From: a virus
Direction: 5' to 3' (one strand)
DNA length: 51,348 bases
IMG/VR virus record: IMGVR_UViG_3300032289_001747
Location: 1 to 51,348 of that record
Made by a program: the position numbers and the translations under genes. The notes under the pieces are model-generated. The model did no database searches. It was not told where the DNA came from and was given only the letters and a program-made list of their open reading frames with translations. This document shows, one piece after another, positions 38,541-47,041 of this stretch (the stretch's first letter is position 1; every line of letters begins with the position of its first letter).

Positions 38541-39344
38541 TTAAGCAAAAGTGTTGATCTTGTACAGCAACTCGATAGTAACGGTGCTATTTCCCAAGGT
38601 GGGGTCTCCTCCTACACAGCTCAAAGAAATTGCCGTGTTGGTAGAAAGAGCAATTGCATCACCTGTAAACCGAGCAAAGGAGAACGACTTCGTGGTAGAA
38701 GCAGTCAACGGAAGAAGAGCCGTGTCAGAAAAGTAAGACGTTCCGCCAACCGTAAGGTCAATAGAAGTTACCGAGGTAACGTCATACGCCGTGGTATTAA
38801 AGTTGGTCTTCCAAGTAAGCGACAGGGGTTCGTACGCAACACCGACTTTAGCGTTGAGGAGTACCACCGGAATACTTCCCAGAGTCAAAACATCCGCAGA
38901 AGACAGGGTTACTACCAAGTTTCTCACCGTCAAATCAGCCTGGGGAATAGCAGCCCATTCACCGGCATCGTTACGAACAAACCGAAAACTTGCGTTTGCC
39001 GGGATATTGATGGTGGTTCCGATAGTGGTTCCAAGATAATTGAAATCACCGGAAGAGCTTCCGACCACAATGCTTCCCGTGGAAAAGTTGTTTATCGTAA
39101 AGTCACTCCACGGTTCGGGATTTTCAGGAAGATACATAACTCCCGAACTTACCGTATCAACGGTTACAACACTTTTTTGTCCAGTCAGATAATAGTCTCC
39201 GACAAATGCGCCAACCAATACATTGTTGGTTTGCGATACTTCATTGACAAGAGCATTAAAGGAAACACCATTGCCAAAATTGAGATCAGTCCCCGTAGGG
39301 GCGTTTACGAACACCGACGAAGCGATGTATTTTTCTGTTGCCAT
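38541..39344 (-). CDS. Beta-rich tail appendage protein
   Basis: This 267-aa protein is rich in Ser, Thr, Val, Asn and Gly with alternating hydrophobics, typical of fibre or tail appendage proteins. Its N-terminus (MATEKYIASSVFVNAPTGTD) is not the anchor shared by the 210- and 465-aa fibre genes, so it may be a separate appendage or a capsid decoration. There are no catalytic motifs. It is separated from the 465-aa fibre gene by a 56-bp gap with A/T-rich sequence before the ATG, and ends at a terminator. It is the last gene of the fibre section. Confidence 0.7.
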   Translation of the reverse strand: MATEKYIASSVFVNAPTGTDLNFGNGVSFNALVNEVSQTNNVLVGAFVGDYYLTGQKSVVTVDTVSSGVMYLPENPEPWSDFTINNFSTGSIVVGSSSGDFNYLGTTIGTTINIPANASFRFVRNDAGEWAAIPQADLTVRNLVVTLSSADVLTLGSIPVVLLNAKVGVAYEPLSLTWKTNFNTTAYDVTSVTSIDLTVGGTSYFSDTALLPLTASTTKSFSFARFTGDAIALSTNTAISLSCVGGDPTLGNSTVTIELLYKINTFA

Positions 39345-39400: not shown

Positions 39401-40798
39401 TTAACTATTAGTATGCTTAGTTACGCGAACAGCGTAAGCATGAACATTTGTTGCGGCATTAGTTGTTTGACCGCTGACAATAAGGTAAACAAACGGAACA
39501 GTAACACTTTGAATTAAAGAGTTACTTGATCCATCTACCGCAGTATTTGCATTAACGGCAGGAGTAATAAACTGATAAATATTACCAAGAACATCTTTTC
39601 GAAAAGTCCTTTGTAAATTTACCGATAGTTCAGATCCGGTGAGTGTATAAGTTGCAATCAACTGTGCTCCCGTCAAACTGTAACTGGAGTTTAAATACAC
39701 TCTAATTGTGGCATCATTAGAAGTATTTTGTCTTTGCGCCAACACAGAAAGCTCAAAAAAATCTCCGCTGTTAATAGTGCTAAAAGGTTGAGCATTTGAA
39801 GCAATTATCGCCTCTGTTAAAGATGTGGTGGAAGTTCCGGAAAAAACTTTTGATACGGACGCATTAACACTTGCCGAAAGTTGAGTACCGTTCATTGAAA
39901 GACCTGTACCCAACGTAATAGGTTCAATGCTACCAGCACCGGCTGCACTGCCTCTACCAAATAGAGTAGATGCGTTAGAAGTCAAACCAAGAGCCGTGTG
40001 TTGTTGTCCTACTGTACCCGCCGTCAACAAAGTTCTACCAACCGAAGTACTGTCCGATATTTGAGCAGAAGGGTGAGTGTGTACCGCAGCGGCAAAATCG
40101 GTAGTATTGGAAAGAGCGGCAGTTCCAAGACCAAGAAAGTTTCTTGCGTCTGCCATACTTCCACTTGCTATAAGGGTTCTACCGGTAGCCGTACAAATTA
40201 CTTCTTGTACTTGACCAGAACCTGGATTAAGGCGACCCAAAATTCTATCTTGAGCAACGTTTTGAATTTTGGCGTAGGTAACTACACCGTTGTCGATAGT
40301 CCACGTTGCACCGGCATTAGACACCGTTATATCGCCCTTGTCACCGTCTGTAACACCACCTGTACCAGTAGGAATATGCCAGGTACCATCAGCACGAAGA
40401 TAATTTGCTGTACCGCCGCCAGAAGCCGGGGTAAGACCTTTGAGGGTATCGGTAAATACATTCAACATTGCCGTTGTCTGTGCAACCGTTAAATTAATAG
40501 GTGCCGTAGGAGAACCGGTATTGTTGCCCTTGATAGTATTGGCGGCCATATTAGACAACCTAGAGTTGTTAACCGCAGCGGCATTAATAGTCCAAATAGA
40601 ACCAGATCCAGATACAGTAATGTCACCCTTATTGCCATCGCTGACTCCTATTCCTACGTAAGACATTACAAAGTTTCTTAAGTATTCCGTAAGGTTAAAA
40701 TCACCTTCCGTCTTACTAATAAACCTGTACAGGTTAGGGGGATTAAGCTGATTAGAGTTAATTACCCTCGACGAAATTTTTATGTCTTGAGTTTCCAT
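39401..40798 (-). CDS. Tail fibre protein with repeat shaft
   Basis: This is a 465-aa protein. The N-terminal anchor [12 protein letters not shown], then [11 protein letters not shown], is shared with the neighbouring 210-aa protein. Residues about 55-190 hold two copies of a shaft repeat ([18 protein letters not shown] and [18 protein letters not shown]) common in phage tail fibres. Residues about 305-465 are a beta-sandwich-like tip with [20 protein letters not shown], paralogous to the tips of the 210- and 648-aa proteins. The gene is therefore a complete anchor-shaft-tip fibre, probably for host-receptor binding. It follows the 49-aa gene by 8 nt. Confidence 0.85.
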
Positions 40799-40806
40799 AT
40801 TTCAAT

Positions 40807-40956
40807 TTAAGAAGGTTGTTTCAAATTGCTGATGTATTCTTTGCACTCTTGGATACTGTCAAATAAAATCAGCACCGATCCGTCAAAGTAACTGGGTTTC
40901 TGCGGAACTGCCGGAGTTACCGGGGATCCGTCAGAATTGCAAGGAACTATTGTCAT
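40807..40956 (-). CDS. Tiny fibre-coupled protein (49 aa), paralogue of the 59-aa one
   Basis: This is a 49-codon frame with start ATG at 40956-40954 overlapping the TGA of the 210-aa fibre gene (ATGA) and a stop TAA at 40809-40807, 8 nt before the 465-aa fibre start. It shares with the 59-aa frame at 41591-41770 the pattern M-x-x-VPC-x(2)-(D/N)G-x-P-x(2)-P-x-VP, then DG-(S/T)-x-L-x(2)-FD. Two independently placed frames with conserved residues, both coupled to a fibre gene, are strong evidence that they are real. The function is unknown; a fibre chaperone or assembly factor, or a fibre-tip cap, is a reasonable guess. Confidence 0.8.
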   Translation of the reverse strand: MTIVPCNSDGSPVTPAVPQKPSYFDGSVLILFDSIQECKEYISNLKQPS

Positions 40957-41585
40957 TGTTTGTAGTATTTGATGAAAGTAAGTTGGGACTCTAAAATATC
41001 AAGAGCGTTTCCTACAGCCCCTGCCGTAATTATATATTGATCAACCGTCCAGTCTATTATTTGTGCTGTCGGCATAGAATCAGATTGATATTCAGTAACG
41101 CTGTCTTGACCAATTGGAAAAGTTACTGTTCCATTTGAAAGGTCAATATAATGCAGCGTACGTACCAACTGAATATACTTGGTTGGAGACGGCATGGTAA
41201 CTGTTGCAAGGGATTGTGCCCCCAAAAGAGATGCAGATGTATTGACATAAACATTTACATACGCATCGGCAAAAGAATCAATATTTGTGAACCGCATCAA
41301 TACTTCTGCCATTGTTCCGTTCTCAAATGTGTTTGCCGGAATAAGGGTATACTGCAACATGGCTTCCGACAAACTGGTTGTGTATGCCGGGTTTTCATTC
41401 ACAATAAATGAAGAGGTTGTGTTGGAAGCGTTGTACGCAATCAAAAACTGCCTCAAGTATTCAGTAAGGTCAAACTGTCCCTCAAAAGCAAGAGATCCCA
41501 GTTGTTGGATAAACTGGTTTGGTCCGTGCATAAACTGGTTGGAGTTTATGACCGACGAACGAATTTTGATAGGTTGTATATCCAT
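40953..41585 (-). CDS. Short tail fibre paralogue
   Basis: This is a 210-aa protein; ATG at 41585 is chosen over a TTG 9 nt upstream, because it sits 5 nt after the stop of the 59-aa gene. The N-terminus has the anchor IKIRSSVINSNQ, then FDLTEYLRQFL, as in the 465-aa fibre. The C-terminal 150 residues have the same tip domain (NVYVNTSASLLGAQSLATVT; later IDWTVDQYIITAG, which matches IDWTVNQYIFTVG in the 648-aa protein). There is no shaft repeat, so it is an anchor-tip form, perhaps a short fibre or an alternative receptor-binding unit. It ends in an ATGA overlap with the 49-aa gene. Confidence 0.8.
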   Translation of the reverse strand: MDIQPIKIRSSVINSNQFMHGPNQFIQQLGSLAFEGQFDLTEYLRQFLIAYNASNTTSSFIVNENPAYTTSLSEAMLQYTLIPANTFENGTMAEVLMRFTNIDSFADAYVNVYVNTSASLLGAQSLATVTMPSPTKYIQLVRTLHYIDLSNGTVTFPIGQDSVTEYQSDSMPTAQIIDWTVDQYIITAGAVGNALDILESQLTFIKYYKQ

Positions 41586-41590
41586 AGTTG

Positions 41591-41770
41591 TCAAAGTTGT
41601 TCTTCTGTTTCTTCAATACTATTCTGTGGAGGATATTTGGTGTTCCACCATTCCTCAAACTCTTTTTCATTGTCAAATACCCACAAGTCAGTACCGTCAT
41701 AAATAGTCGGCATGGGGGGAACAATAGGTTCCAAAGGTTGTCCGTTTGGTCCACAAGGTACAGTTCTCAT
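41591..41770 (-). CDS. Tiny fibre-coupled protein (59 aa)
   Basis: This is a 59-codon frame starting at ATG 41770, overlapping the TGA of the 648-aa fibre gene (ATGA), and ending at TGA 41593-41591, 5 nt before the ATG of the 210-aa fibre gene. The N-terminal VPCGPNGQP, then PIVPPMP and DGTDLWVFD, is paralogous to the 49-aa frame at 40807-40956. It then has an aromatic, acidic stretch (EKEFEEWWNTKYPP). The single Cys is conserved between the two. The function is unknown; coupling to the fibre gene suggests stoichiometric production with it. Confidence 0.8.
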   Translation of the reverse strand: MRTVPCGPNGQPLEPIVPPMPTIYDGTDLWVFDNEKEFEEWWNTKYPPQNSIEETEEQL

Positions 41771-43713
41771 CTCCGCGTCAGGATTATGAAGTTAGAAGTT
41801 ACTGTATCTGCGGCACTGCTCAAGGTACCAACCGTAAAAATATACTGATTTACTGTCCAGTCAATGTTAAGGGAAGTAACCGCTGTTGAACTGTTTTGGC
41901 TATCTGTAGTTAACGCCGAGGTCGCACCAAAGAGTTGCGTATTGGTAGCACTAATGATGTTTAACGTTCTCTCTACTTGAAGAAATGTACCGGCGGCTGC
42001 TAACGTTTGACCAGTAAATGTCAACATACCTACGGTAGAAAGACTGGTGTTGACATGTAGTCTTACCACCGCTGTATTTGCAGTTCCAGATTTTACACAC
42101 CGGTACATAATAGCAATAACGTCACCGACAGCATAGGTGTTTGCCGGAATTAAGATTGACTGTAAAATAGTAGCGGTGGTAGTACCGGTTACACTTTGCA
42201 GTACACTATTCTTAAGATAGCTTGGATACGGAGGAGTTATAAACTGTCCGTAACCACCGCTTAGCCACGTCATCACTTGACCAGTTATTTCAGTACCGGT
42301 TTCATTCATGTTGTGAAGGTCATCGAACCCAATAGCCTCGCCGATTCGAACATAGATTTTTCCGTTAATGGCGTGCGCGTGTTCGACGTAGCCGACCGAT
42401 ACCTTGAAGTATGGGGCCAACGGCCGCACGTTCGTAAGGCCGCCCGGCGTGGTAGGCGACAGCCAAAGCTCATCGCCATCATTCCACGTCTCGCCTTGCA
42501 GGGATCCGGTAGTGTTGATTTCGCGCACCACACCAACCAGTGTAATGAAGCCCTGTTGGTTGTTGGCGATATTTTCCGTGACCACACCGAGGGTGCCCCG
42601 TGCGTTGAGGGCCGTGTCAGCTTGAGCGAAGTCCACCCTAAGCCGCTGAAATTGCGCATCGTCAACACGCACGACGGCATATCCGGCCTCCGTCAAGTTG
42701 GTGCCCGTCTTGTTGACCACACGGCTAACGATTTCTTGCCCTATTTGGAGTGTTACATCACCGCCCTTTAGGCCGAGGTCCAGGGTGCCGTCGGTATTGT
42801 TCCACTGCATTCGCGCCACGGCCCCGGCATTTGCCGGAGTAATATCAAAGTCAATAGAACCGACATTGGTCAGGTTATTCTGGTTAAGGTTTATGTCTAA
42901 ACACGCTGAGTTACCTGCGGTTAATACCGAACAAAGATCGGGAGTTGCAGATCCAGAAGGAGGTAAAAACTCCGCTCTGGAGTTAGCAGATACCCATGTC
43001 AACACGTCATTGTTGGTCGGCGTAGTAGCTACATACACATCTTGAATATCTGCCAATCCGTAGCCATAATTGGGTTTAACGTAAATCTTACCTAAAGTCG
43101 CATGGGTGTACGTAACGTAACCTACAATAATGCGGTAATTTGGAGAAGTAGGTTTGACGTTTGTCAGTCCTCCGGCAACCGTTGGTGACAAGTATAGAAC
43201 ATCCCCGTCCATCCATATCTCACCTTGTAGTGTACCGGTTGTGTCAATATTCTCAACTTCACCAAGGGTACACACAAAACCTTCCCCTAAAACCGCTATA
43301 TCTTCCACTACAAGCCCTAAAACATCTTTGGTGGTAGAAGCATCCGCTCTCGCTAAACGAACGCTTACGCGCTCACTGAATGCGTCGTAGGGGTAAACTG
43401 CTTTGTAAGCAGACTTCAACAAAATTGCCGAGGTGTCATTGATAACCCTGGTCATGTTCTGTTGACCTACCTGTAAAACTACATCGCCGCCACCAAGACC
43501 TAAGTCAAGGGTTCCATTGTCATTGTTCCAAACAAGAGTACCTTCCGTTGGTGTTCCGGTTGGAGTAGTGTTGAACGTTATGTGATCAACGTTATCCAAA
43601 GCCGTACCGATCAAACCGTTTATGTATCCGGTAAGATCAAAGGCGTATTTCTCCGGCAGCATAGACACCGGAACACCCAAACGGTTAGTAAATATCTTTA
43701 AGGCTACGTACAT
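41767..43713 (-). CDS. Large tail fibre with duplicated domain, one copy GC-rich
   Basis: This is a 648-aa protein. Residues about 58-230 and 292-464 are two copies of one domain (WNNDNGTLDLGLGGGDVVLQ against WNNTDGTLDLGLKGGDVTLQ; LQGEIWMDGDVLYLSP against LQGETWNDGDELWLSP; GGLTNVKP against GGLTNVRP). The second copy is encoded by DNA of about 60-68% GC, the first by about 40%. Residues about 500-648 are the tip domain shared with the 210- and 465-aa fibres (VRLHVNTSLSTVGMLTFTG; IDWTVNQYIFTVG). The N-terminus (FDLTGYINGLI) is only loosely like the other anchors. It is likely an adhesive fibre or spike. It overlaps the 86-aa gene by 10 nt and ends in ATGA with the 59-aa gene. Confidence 0.85.
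   Translation of the reverse strand: MYVALKIFTNRLGVPVSMLPEKYAFDLTGYINGLIGTALDNVDHITFNTTPTGTPTEGTLVWNNDNGTLDLGLGGGDVVLQVGQQNMTRVINDTSAILLKSAYKAVYPYDAFSERVSVRLARADASTTKDVLGLVVEDIAVLGEGFVCTLGEVENIDTTGTLQGEIWMDGDVLYLSPTVAGGLTNVKPTSPNYRIIVGYVTYTHATLGKIYVKPNYGYGLADIQDVYVATTPTNNDVLTWVSANSRAEFLPPSGSATPDLCSVLTAGNSACLDINLNQNNLTNVGSIDFDITPANAGAVARMQWNNTDGTLDLGLKGGDVTLQIGQEIVSRVVNKTGTNLTEAGYAVVRVDDAQFQRLRVDFAQADTALNARGTLGVVTENIANNQQGFITLVGVVREINTTGSLQGETWNDGDELWLSPTTPGGLTNVRPLAPYFKVSVGYVEHAHAINGKIYVRIGEAIGFDDLHNMNETGTEITGQVMTWLSGGYGQFITPPYPSYLKNSVLQSVTGTTTATILQSILIPANTYAVGDVIAIMYRCVKSGTANTAVVRLHVNTSLSTVGMLTFTGQTLAAAGTFLQVERTLNIISATNTQLFGATSALTTDSQNSSTAVTSLNIDWTVNQYIFTVGTLSSAADTVTSNFIILTRR
42320..42838 (-). 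repeat. GC-rich second copy of the fibre domain (recombinant module)
   Basis: GC changes sharply at both edges: hand counts give 68% for 42421-42480 and 65% for 42781-42840, against 33% for 42841-42900 and 40% for 42061-42120. The module encodes the second copy of the duplicated domain in the fibre protein. The domain match at protein level without a match in base composition means the copies did not arise by recent tandem duplication. Confidence 0.8.
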
Positions 43714-44842: not shown

Positions 44843-46300
44843 TTAGAAGAAGAAGGTCGTGGACGTACACAGACCGTGCAGCGTAAAGTTGCTGTAGTTG
44901 TACGCACTTTGCAGCCAATCACCGAGAATAGTGTTGGTGTCCGCAATCAGAGTGTTGTTGGTTGTGTCATACGTGTAATCCACAGCACCACCGGCCAAAG
45001 TACCGGCAGTAGCCGTCGGGTTGGTAGCAGCAGCAGGGAACAACATTACCACCGACTTCTCAAAGATCTGATGGCTGTTCATCGGCTCCAGATCATCGAA
45101 GTACTTAATCTCCGTGACCGTGTACAGTGCCGAGTACTCGTTGGTAAAGTACAGGGGAACGGTCGGGAAGAAGTCACCGTGCGGTTGGTTCTGTTGCGAG
45201 TTCTGAATAGCAGCATTAGCCCTCCAACGCATCCACAGAAGACGACCAACGTTCAGCGGCTCACGGCTATCCGAACCTTCTTCGATAGTCGGAAGAGCGG
45301 CACGGAACCCACCTTCAAGACCACAGATGACACGTTCGCGCATCGTCGGAATATCGGTGAAAGCAATGGGCAGCGTTTCATCCAGCGCACAGACGATGAA
45401 TCCGTCGATGATGTTGGCAGCAGCAATCGGAAAAGCCGTGTTCAGGGGAACAATTTCCGAGGTAGTCGTCAAAGCCGTATTTGCAATAAGAGCAGAAACG
45501 GTTTGAACAAAAGCGTAGTCGGCAGTAAACGTCAAAGACGTACCGTTGACCGTAGCCCAAGTAAACGACAGACCGTTGTTGATAGTACCCAGAGCTTGAC
45601 CAGTGGAAGTACCAGCAAGGTTGATACCAAACACGATGAAGTTCTTACGACCGCGCTGACGACCGGGAGCATTGGACCACAGCTTGGAGAACGTTGCCAG
45701 TTTACCGGCGACATTGTGCAGCATGTGGCTACGCGATTGGGTAGCCGTGTAACCCAAAGCAGTGTAGTCGGGGGTTACAAACGAAGCATACTGACGGTCA
45801 TCAAGCACCTGACCATAGTAGGTGTGCTGACGGCTTCCGCGCATCACCACCGAAGCAGCATAGTTGGTGTTGGACGTGGGAGTAGCCACGGAAGTTATCG
45901 AAATAGCATTGAACGACCCGTAGTTCGGGAAAGTCGTGGATACGCTGCGAATACGATCACCGATAATCGAGTCGGACTTTACCACCGGCTGATCACCGAA
46001 ACCAAAGTGACCGGCAAGAGCCAAGTTAGCAGAAGCCGGAGTTCCTTGAACAACATAAATCGAAGGAACGCCCGGATAAGTGTCCGTGTTTTGAAGGTGT
46101 TCGTAATAATCACGAACAGTGCTGTCGGAAGACGAACAAACGGCGGAGATAAAGCCGTTCGGCAGATTCAACGCCGTACCCGTTCCAACAAGATTGTTGT
46201 TAGGGAAAGAAGGCGTAGCGGTAGGAAATGCAGTTTGGGTGTTACCCGCCACAATAAAGCAATCCTTTTGCAAAAAAGTGGTTTTCTTGGTAGTTGGCAT
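44843..46300 (-). CDS. Abundant structural protein (auxiliary capsid or tail)
   Basis: This is a 485-aa protein rich in Thr, Ala, Asn and Ser, with an ordered alpha/beta body (RSHMLHNVAGKLATFSKLW; FIVCALDETLPIAFTDIPTM) and an Ala/Thr-rich flexible C-terminal part ending in FFF. The codons are GC-richer and more regular than in most neighbours, like those of the major capsid gene, and a strong terminator follows directly; both point to a highly made virion protein. I cannot tell an auxiliary capsid protein from a tail component. No enzyme motif. It starts 3 nt after the 245-aa gene. Confidence 0.7.
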   Translation of the reverse strand: MPTTKKTTFLQKDCFIVAGNTQTAFPTATPSFPNNNLVGTGTALNLPNGFISAVCSSSDSTVRDYYEHLQNTDTYPGVPSIYVVQGTPASANLALAGHFGFGDQPVVKSDSIIGDRIRSVSTTFPNYGSFNAISITSVATPTSNTNYAASVVMRGSRQHTYYGQVLDDRQYASFVTPDYTALGYTATQSRSHMLHNVAGKLATFSKLWSNAPGRQRGRKNFIVFGINLAGTSTGQALGTINNGLSFTWATVNGTSLTFTADYAFVQTVSALIANTALTTTSEIVPLNTAFPIAAANIIDGFIVCALDETLPIAFTDIPTMRERVICGLEGGFRAALPTIEEGSDSREPLNVGRLLWMRWRANAAIQNSQQNQPHGDFFPTVPLYFTNEYSALYTVTEIKYFDDLEPMNSHQIFEKSVVMLFPAAATNPTATAGTLAGGAVDYTYDTTNNTLIADTNTILGDWLQSAYNYSNFTLHGLCTSTTFFF

Positions 46301-46303
46301 AAT

Positions 46304-47041
46304 TTACTGTTTTTGGTTGATGGCCACTCCCTGTGGCACCAACAATGTACGATAAAGATTCTGTACCGTCATGTCCACGAGCAGCGAGTGATATTGCTCC
46401 GGCAGATCGGAATTTACCTGGGGGTCTCCCGTAGTGTATAGTCCATCCAACGAATCGTATCCGCCGAAATAGACAACCACGGGTTTTTTAATATACTCTA
46501 TACGAACGGAGTTCACCGCAAACTGTCCGTCCGTGTACACGTATAAAGAACTCTCACCAATATTATTATTGGTCTTTCCTATAGCACCGATGCACCGTCT
46601 CCATTTCAGGGAAGGTTTTCTTAAAGGATCTATCAACACCACGTTCAAGTCATCGTGTTGTACCAACTGCAAATTTGTCAAAGACCAACCGGAACAATCG
46701 GTAAACACGTAAGCCCTTAGAATGTGAGCGTAGTCAAACGCAAGAGAAGAGAACGGAACCTCATAGACGTTGAGCGTTGAATCAAAGTTAATGGGTGCAA
46801 TATCGGATTGTTCGGGATTCTTGACCACCAAGGTCGAGAGCATATCCGTTCTCTGCTGCGTTACTTCAAATCCAAGATCGTATGCCGTTGACATCTTTCC
46901 AGAGTAAAAGCCTTCCACGTAGTCCGTGGTTGCGGCATTTATAGCTCTGTCGATATGCGCCGGAGGTAAGTCCCGCAACACATTAGTATCAAGCTTATTG
47001 GCTCGAAACTTTACCTCAAAGTGCATTTCGTCGATGTTCAC
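46304..47041 (-). CDS. Connector/ring-type structural protein
   Basis: This is a 245-aa protein. The N-terminal part (LPPAHIDRAINAATTDYVEG) is helical, the middle is beta-rich (YAHILRAYVFTDCSGWS; VVLIDPLRKPSLKWRRCIGA) and the C-terminus contains SVRIEYIKKPVVVYFGGYDS and DLPEQYHSLLVDMTVQNLYR. This order of a beta-sandwich followed by a conserved E-Y-H-x-L-L-V-D helix is common in head-completion and ring proteins of short-tailed phages, where the helix packs against the neighbouring subunit. It shares its first base with the stop of the 377-aa gene. The exact ring is not assigned. Confidence 0.65.
   Translation of the reverse strand: MNIDEMHFEVKFRANKLDTNVLRDLPPAHIDRAINAATTDYVEGFYSGKMSTAYDLGFEVTQQRTDMLSTLVVKNPEQSDIAPINFDSTLNVYEVPFSSLAFDYAHILRAYVFTDCSGWSLTNLQLVQHDDLNVVLIDPLRKPSLKWRRCIGAIGKTNNNIGESSLYVYTDGQFAVNSVRIEYIKKPVVVYFGGYDSLDGLYTTGDPQVNSDLPEQYHSLLVDMTVQNLYRTLLVPQGVAINQKQ

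Follow-up and report, generated by a model that had tools for sequence, protein, structure and literature searches.

Introduction

That a phage fibre and a partner protein dedicated to it may be exchanged as a module is already known. The Tfa/Caudo_TAP proteins of lambda, Mu and P2 are encoded behind a fibre gene and serve a dedicated client, and in T-even phages the gene behind the distal fibre gene encodes gp38, which caps the tip. Alteromonas phages A5 and V22, which differ in morphology, have a fibre and its cognate chaperone in common, and a role as a transient cap has been suggested for the chaperone (PMC10579305). Residues 1-55 of Pam3 gp25, made up of strands and one short helix, grip a TNF-like fibre tip (PMC9608196; PDB 7YPX); far more soluble fibre is obtained with gp25 than without it, and gp25 was not detected in virions (PMC9608196). 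An XkdW-like protein has been described with a coiled-coil C-terminus (PMC8190038).

The stretch of DNA considered in this study (henceforth the window) consists of 51,348 nucleotides, the whole of IMG/VR record IMGVR_UViG_3300032289_001747 from position 1 to 51,348. It comes from a crAss-like phage, as seen from its matches to PF24228 (CrAss_Ring_1, E=5.5e-15) and to the major head protein phrog_11589 (E=4.6e-41). At 22-24% identity, its capsid also matches the capsids of crAss-like phages and of Flavobacterium phages of the FpV4 type. An earlier note had drawn attention to two tiny genes in the window, each coupled to the fibre gene before it. The main new result of this study, which goes beyond what that note claimed, is that the tip of the fibre and the tiny ORF behind it are, as comparison of their sequences shows, exchanged together between unrelated phages.

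Results

Fibre genes and small ORFs of the window

The features of the locus are as follows.

41767-43713, minus strand: fibre F1 (P0003), 648 aa, with matches to phage tail fibre proteins
42265-42915, minus strand: segment of the F1 body common with long-tailed phages, 651 bp, 83% DNA identity to L015
41770-42234, minus strand: F1 tip domain, the last 155 aa, a predicted beta-sandwich and proposed partner of small ORF A
41767-41770, minus strand: ATGA junction, F1 stop and small ORF A start
41591-41770, minus strand: small ORF A (P0001), 59 codons, translated to 59 aa
40953-41585, minus strand: fibre F2 (P0004), 210 aa, mostly tip domain
40953-40956, minus strand: ATGA junction, F2 stop and small ORF B start
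40807-40956, minus strand: small ORF B (P0002), 49 codons, translated to 49 aa
39401-40798, minus strand: fibre F3 (P0005), 465 aa, with a diverged tip at 39416-39853 and no small ORF behind it

Read along the minus strand, F1 (648 aa) is followed by ORF A, F2 (210 aa), ORF B, F3 (465 aa) and then a gene of 267 aa. The stop of ORF A lies 5 nt from the start of F2 and that of ORF B 8 nt from the start of F3; these gaps, and the coordinates, lengths and ATGA junctions of both small ORFs, are just as the earlier note gave them. To the same note this arrangement looked like a repeating cassette. The order is fibre-small-fibre-small-fibre, and no small ORF is found downstream of F3 before the next gene, whose start is at 39344. 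Common gene callers accept ORFs of at least 90 nt, and to call frames of 49 and 59 codons far too short for most of them was an overstatement. Elsewhere in the window, a frame of 521 codons (44876-46441, plus strand) lies antisense to a gene of 485 aa (44843-46300, minus strand) and is probably a by-product of codon use.

Fibres and their tips

Between residues about 106 and 472, F1 matches tail fibre proteins of phages. The C-terminal ~150 residues of F1 and those of F2 align as one domain, to which I will refer as the tip. The tip of F1 is modelled by AlphaFold2 as a beta-sandwich (pLDDT 87.8, pTM 0.83). Comparison of the model with folds in the PDB gave only generic beta-sandwich/jelly-roll matches, with a TM-score of at most about 0.5, and because the matches are generic I claim no exact fold family for it. 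A profile of the tip matches F2 with E=3.5e-53 (F2 itself belongs to the profile) and the strongly diverged tip of F3 with E=1.2e-14, and a pattern-based scan of bacterial genomes found no tip domain. Residues 39-242 and about 252-490 of F1 both match the same part of the fibres of homologues (44-47% identity), and F1 appears to contain an internal duplication.

The small ORFs are conserved genes

The two small ORFs had been described as paralogues, about 40% identical over their first 35 residues. By count 15 of these residues are identical (43%), and identity over 48 aligned columns is 38%. The relationship holds up without recourse to a profile: ORF A as a tblastn query finds ORF B in the window with E=1.6e-8.

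Two findings had been named in the earlier note as counting against its observation, an absence of conservation in related phages and a substitution ratio near neutrality. Homologues of the small ORFs are found in independent contigs, and comparison of the window with one of these, the crAss-like contig L004, gives ratios far from neutral. ORF A shows 17.5 nonsynonymous changes in 142 sites and 16.5 synonymous changes in 36 sites (dN/dS 0.19), and ORF B shows 2 nonsynonymous changes in 115 sites and 11 synonymous changes in 32 (dN/dS 0.04). Both small ORFs are under purifying selection, and both are conserved genes.

Among 14 sequences of the small protein, the invariant positions are M1, P5, G10, P12, P15, P18, P21, G26, L29, F32, D33 and E37. 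Four of the invariant prolines are spaced exactly three apart (P-x-x-P-x-x-P-x-x-P), a spacing that may represent the pattern of a polyproline-II stripe. The fold predicted for ORF A (AlphaFold2, pLDDT 81) has a strand at residues 2-4, a hairpin at 22-24/29-31 and a helix at 35-45.

The coupling of fibre and small ORF, noted before in the window, recurs in other phages: the ATGA overlap is present in both window copies and in all relatives read at the junction (11/11). The last codons of the fibre vary at the junction, yet M1 of the small ORF is invariant, and no slippery motif common to the junctions was found by eye. The invariant M1, the ATGA in every copy read and the lack of a slippery sequence suggest termination-reinitiation.

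Searches of databases for the small family

Neither Pfam, NCBIfam and PHROGs nor the PDB contains the small family. When 14 members were compared with Pfam and NCBIfam at E<=10, no match to Tfa/Caudo_TAP was found, and the one match obtained, to FBA_3 (0.13), is a chance match. A tblastn search of 50,697 phage records found no member of the family, matches to GenBank phages being at chance level only, and a pattern-based scan of bacterial genomes with the small family found none. A Foldseek search of the PDB with the model of ORF A, a weak query at 59 residues, gave 13 matches at E<=10, with no fibre chaperone among them; none of these matches is significant, and the same search of BFVD folds likewise gave nothing significant. 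Some candidates were set aside. The matches in Bacillus phages lie inside unrelated proteins of 233-251 aa, which are encoded close to the terminase and do not follow a fibre, and a weak match of 21 residues in L072 lies in an ORF of other context with no fibre.

Phages that carry the small protein

Virus contigs were searched with ORF A, with ORF B and with alignments. The small protein is present in three further crAss-like contigs, near-identical in L003, 80% identical in L004 and 57% in L007. It is also present in phages of a different kind (L005, L006, L011, L013-L016 and L031). Contigs of this second kind carry genes for a terminase large subunit and for a tape measure protein of 1168 aa, and so belong to long-tailed phages unrelated to the window phage. 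The small family reaches beyond Crassvirales.

The number of small ORFs equals the number of close tips: two in the crAss-like contigs and one in the long-tailed contigs. In the long-tailed phages there is one tip-bearing fibre with one small ORF, behind which comes an unrelated gene and no second fibre, and in L004 F3 is absent altogether and both small ORFs are kept.

Co-inheritance of tip and small ORF

Seven F1-type modules were compared, each in three parts: the body adjoining the tip, the tip itself and the small protein. Across these seven modules, identity of the small protein correlates with identity of the tip (r=0.945) and still does so given the body (partial r 0.94), and its partial correlation with the body, given the tip, is -0.18. 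Mantel tests of tip/small-protein congruence give r of 0.90-0.96. The tree of the tip and that of the small protein are the same for the 7 taxa, grouping L007 (its F1 module) with L031, the window with L004, and the L005 group by itself. The tree of the body is rejected by the small-protein data (AU p=2.2e-5) and overwhelmingly by the tip data, and the tip tree is rejected by the body data (AU p=0.019). It follows that crAss-like L007 and long-tailed L031 have one version of tip plus small ORF in common, and that in both of these parts the window and L004 stand nearer to the long-tailed L005 group than to L007.

The gene that follows the small ORF in the long-tailed phages does not track it. 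L005 and L015 are 92% identical in the small protein and 52% in the next gene; L005 and L031 are 52% identical in the small protein and 57% in the next gene. Because identity of the next gene diverges in this way from that of the small protein, the small ORF marks the 3' border of the cassette. The congruence of tip and small ORF, together with the discordance of body and next gene, indicates that the exchanged unit is the tip plus the tiny ORF. Hitch-hiking of linked adjacent genes could lie behind part of this co-inheritance, but both borders of the cassette argue against it, and an exchange that simply dragged a neighbour along would be unlikely to stop so exactly at the small ORF. The strict pairing with fibres proposed in the earlier note can now be put more narrowly: it is the tip domain that the small ORF follows, and neither the fibre body nor the next gene. 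In most pairs of modules the small protein is at least as conserved as the tip.

The body of F1 is 86-87% identical in amino acids to the bodies of L015 and L016. The GC content around the shared segment of the F1 body is 0.54, as compared to 0.42 for the window, and that of L015 is 58.5%. Taken with the 83% DNA identity of F1 and L015 over 651 bp, the contrast in GC gives the impression that the segment passed fairly recently from one kind of phage to the other, crAss-like and long-tailed. A transfer of this fibre segment would suggest a common host.

Other tiny families in the same slot, and exceptions

A profile search found tip domains in further virus contigs, 29-38% identical to the tip of F1, and these distant tips often have a tiny ORF of other sequence in the same slot. 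A second family, of about 65-77 aa, is found in L033, L034, L035, L037 and L041, and a third, of 70-73 aa and ATGA-coupled, in L038, L039 and L043-L046. Comparison of profiles, thin as they are, detected no homology among the three families. With family 2 as the sole query, 14 loci were found, and in 14/14 a tip domain is present (E<=7.7e-18) in the gene immediately upstream, the end of which is no more than 5 nt from the small match; five of these contigs were among those used to build the tip profile and nine were not. L033 repeats the order fibre-small-fibre-small with family 2.

Some tips stand without a tiny ORF, namely that of F3, those of the first and second fibres in the tandem of three in L040, and that of L042. 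The fibre genes of L040 (2932-4525), of 175-177 aa and all with the tip, are followed by a single family-2 ORF. In L036, the slot behind the tip is occupied by an ORF of 159 aa. In Flavobacterium phages of Lillamyvirus and Muminvirus (L020, 6055-6471; L021, 5404-5820), the tip is followed by a protein of 138 aa, the C-terminal part of which has relatives in phages of Sinorhizobium, Rhizobium and Pseudomonas. Homology of the small family to this protein was not detectable. Since these Flavobacterium phages have been isolated, they offer a culturable place for testing the partners of tips.

Discussion

A proposed function and its rivals

On balance, the product of the small ORF is probably a tip-specific folding chaperone or cap, the dedicated partner of the tip of the preceding fibre. 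Ribosomes completing the fibre would probably restart at the overlapping ATGA, and fibre and partner would be made together. The partner, of 50-70 residues, is predicted to have an extended N-terminal arm with the proline stripe, a beta-hairpin and a terminal helix. It would bind the beta-sandwich tip of what would be a fibre trimer and, so bound, serve as an assembly chaperone or cap in the manner of Tfa-type proteins. I favour this function because of the exclusive link to the tip, the conservation of the small protein, and the precedents in the Alteromonas phages and Pam3 gp25. A protein that in most cases equals or exceeds the tip in conservation better fits a folding or structural role than that of a fast-changing receptor ligand. 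Against it I count the lack of a match in sequence or fold to any known chaperone and the tips that have no tiny ORF or have a protein of 138 or 159 aa in its place. The earlier note had offered a chaperone, a cap or a trimer adaptor, and of these the tip-linked role gains support, as the small ORF tracks the tip, but the adaptor does not sit well with the single-fibre phages or with L004, which lacks F3.

The main rival, which I consider unlikely though it deserves to be taken seriously, is that the small protein stays in the virion as a second exchangeable subunit of the tip, an adhesin or adaptor comparable to T-even gp38, in which case the receptor-binding site would be built from two gene products. 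That the small ORF moves only with the tip domain fits this reading, coupled translation would suit a fixed stoichiometry, and more distant tips do have different tiny families. Mu Tfa is reported to remain at the tip (cited in PMC10579305). Strong purifying selection and conservation that mostly equals or exceeds that of the tips are unlike typical adhesins, however, and by analogy the absence of Pam3 gp25 from virions (PMC9608196) also speaks against a permanent subunit. A more elaborate version, which strikes me as doubtful, is a two-component receptor-binding head: the tip would be the constant element, the partner would stay on the virion and help to set specificity, the cassette would be exchanged between crAss-like and long-tailed phages, and the slot would hold any of several tiny families (49-77 aa) of unrelated sequence.

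It is quite improbable that the small ORF is independent of the fibre, encoding for example a host-takeover or exclusion peptide, and merely occupies a site behind the tip where recombination is frequent. Fibre tips are known hot spots of recombination and adjacent genes do hitch-hike, but one copy accompanies each close tip even in tandem cassettes, the topology is identical to that of the tip and discordant with those of body and next gene, and a second tiny family is paired with the tip likewise. The position of the window's small ORFs between successive fibre genes might suggest a connector that links each fibre, at its tip, with the beginning of the fibre after it, an idea made very hard to credit by the long-tailed phages, where an unrelated gene follows the only tip-bearing fibre and its small ORF, and by the retention of ORF B in L004 though F3 is missing. 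Least credible of all, their shortness notwithstanding, is that the small ORFs are not genes but chance frames or a read-through or frameshift tail of the fibre, given dN/dS of 0.04-0.19, conservation in other contigs, an invariant M1, and fibre ends that differ at the junction with no common slippery motif by eye.

Phage fibres are often hard to make as folded trimers. If tips of the present kind need a dedicated partner of 50 residues that is missing from profile libraries, failed expression would have a simple cause, and poor predictions of host range would be explained as well. The short ORFs behind fibres, heretofore simply unknown, become a class open to tests by co-expression. In the cassette one also sees parts for receptor binding move between a crAss-like phage and long-tailed ones, which gives a direct handle on host switching and common hosts.

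Comparison with known systems

To my knowledge, the size of the partner, its tandem copies, its co-inheritance with the tip only and its spread over crAss-like and long-tailed phages are new. I assign the small proteins to no known chaperone family. No match to the T-even gp38 family was found for them, and gp38 adhesins are much larger, hypervariable and glycine-rich. XkdW (PF09636), of PBSX-type Bacillus phages, is likewise small and encoded directly behind a gene in the position of a fibre gene (in Bacillus phage PBP180). Comparison of XkdW with the small family by hhalign gave P of 0.0007-0.0017 and a probability of 15-27% over 21-26 columns, covering a W-W helix and a Pro-rich tail, the XkdW query being an approximate sequence 58-63% identical to the PBP180 protein. 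The small family has no Pfam match to PF09636, none of the related records contains PF09636, and the similarity is a lead only.

The small ORFs resemble Tfa/Caudo_TAP genes in lying directly behind the client fibre (with ATGA in the two window copies and 11 relatives). Tfa/Caudo_TAP proteins have two domains, about 160-240 aa and a helical multimerisation region, whereas the small proteins, of 49-70 aa, are predicted to consist of strand, hairpin and one helix, are about a third of the size of Tfa and have no detectable homology to it. As in Alteromonas A5 and V22, the partner gene lies directly behind the fibre and both travel between unlike phages. The Alteromonas chaperones, however, have 195-240 aa and combine a helical body with a beta-hairpin tentacle; the small proteins of 49-70 aa have no detected similarity to them, and the partner of the window type is ATGA-coupled and occurs in up to two copies per genome.

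The pair gp24-gp25 of Pam3 offers another comparison. Searches of Pfam and NCBIfam for sequence similarity and of the PDB for similarity of fold gave no sign of common descent with the gp25-type domain. At 162 aa, Pam3 gp25 includes a helical trimerisation domain, which is missing from the small proteins. In size and make-up, the small proteins are close to residues 1-55 of gp25, and their client too is a predicted beta-sandwich. By this analogy, it is an attractive idea that the small protein may be a minimal partner, equal to a gp25-like tip-binding domain alone.
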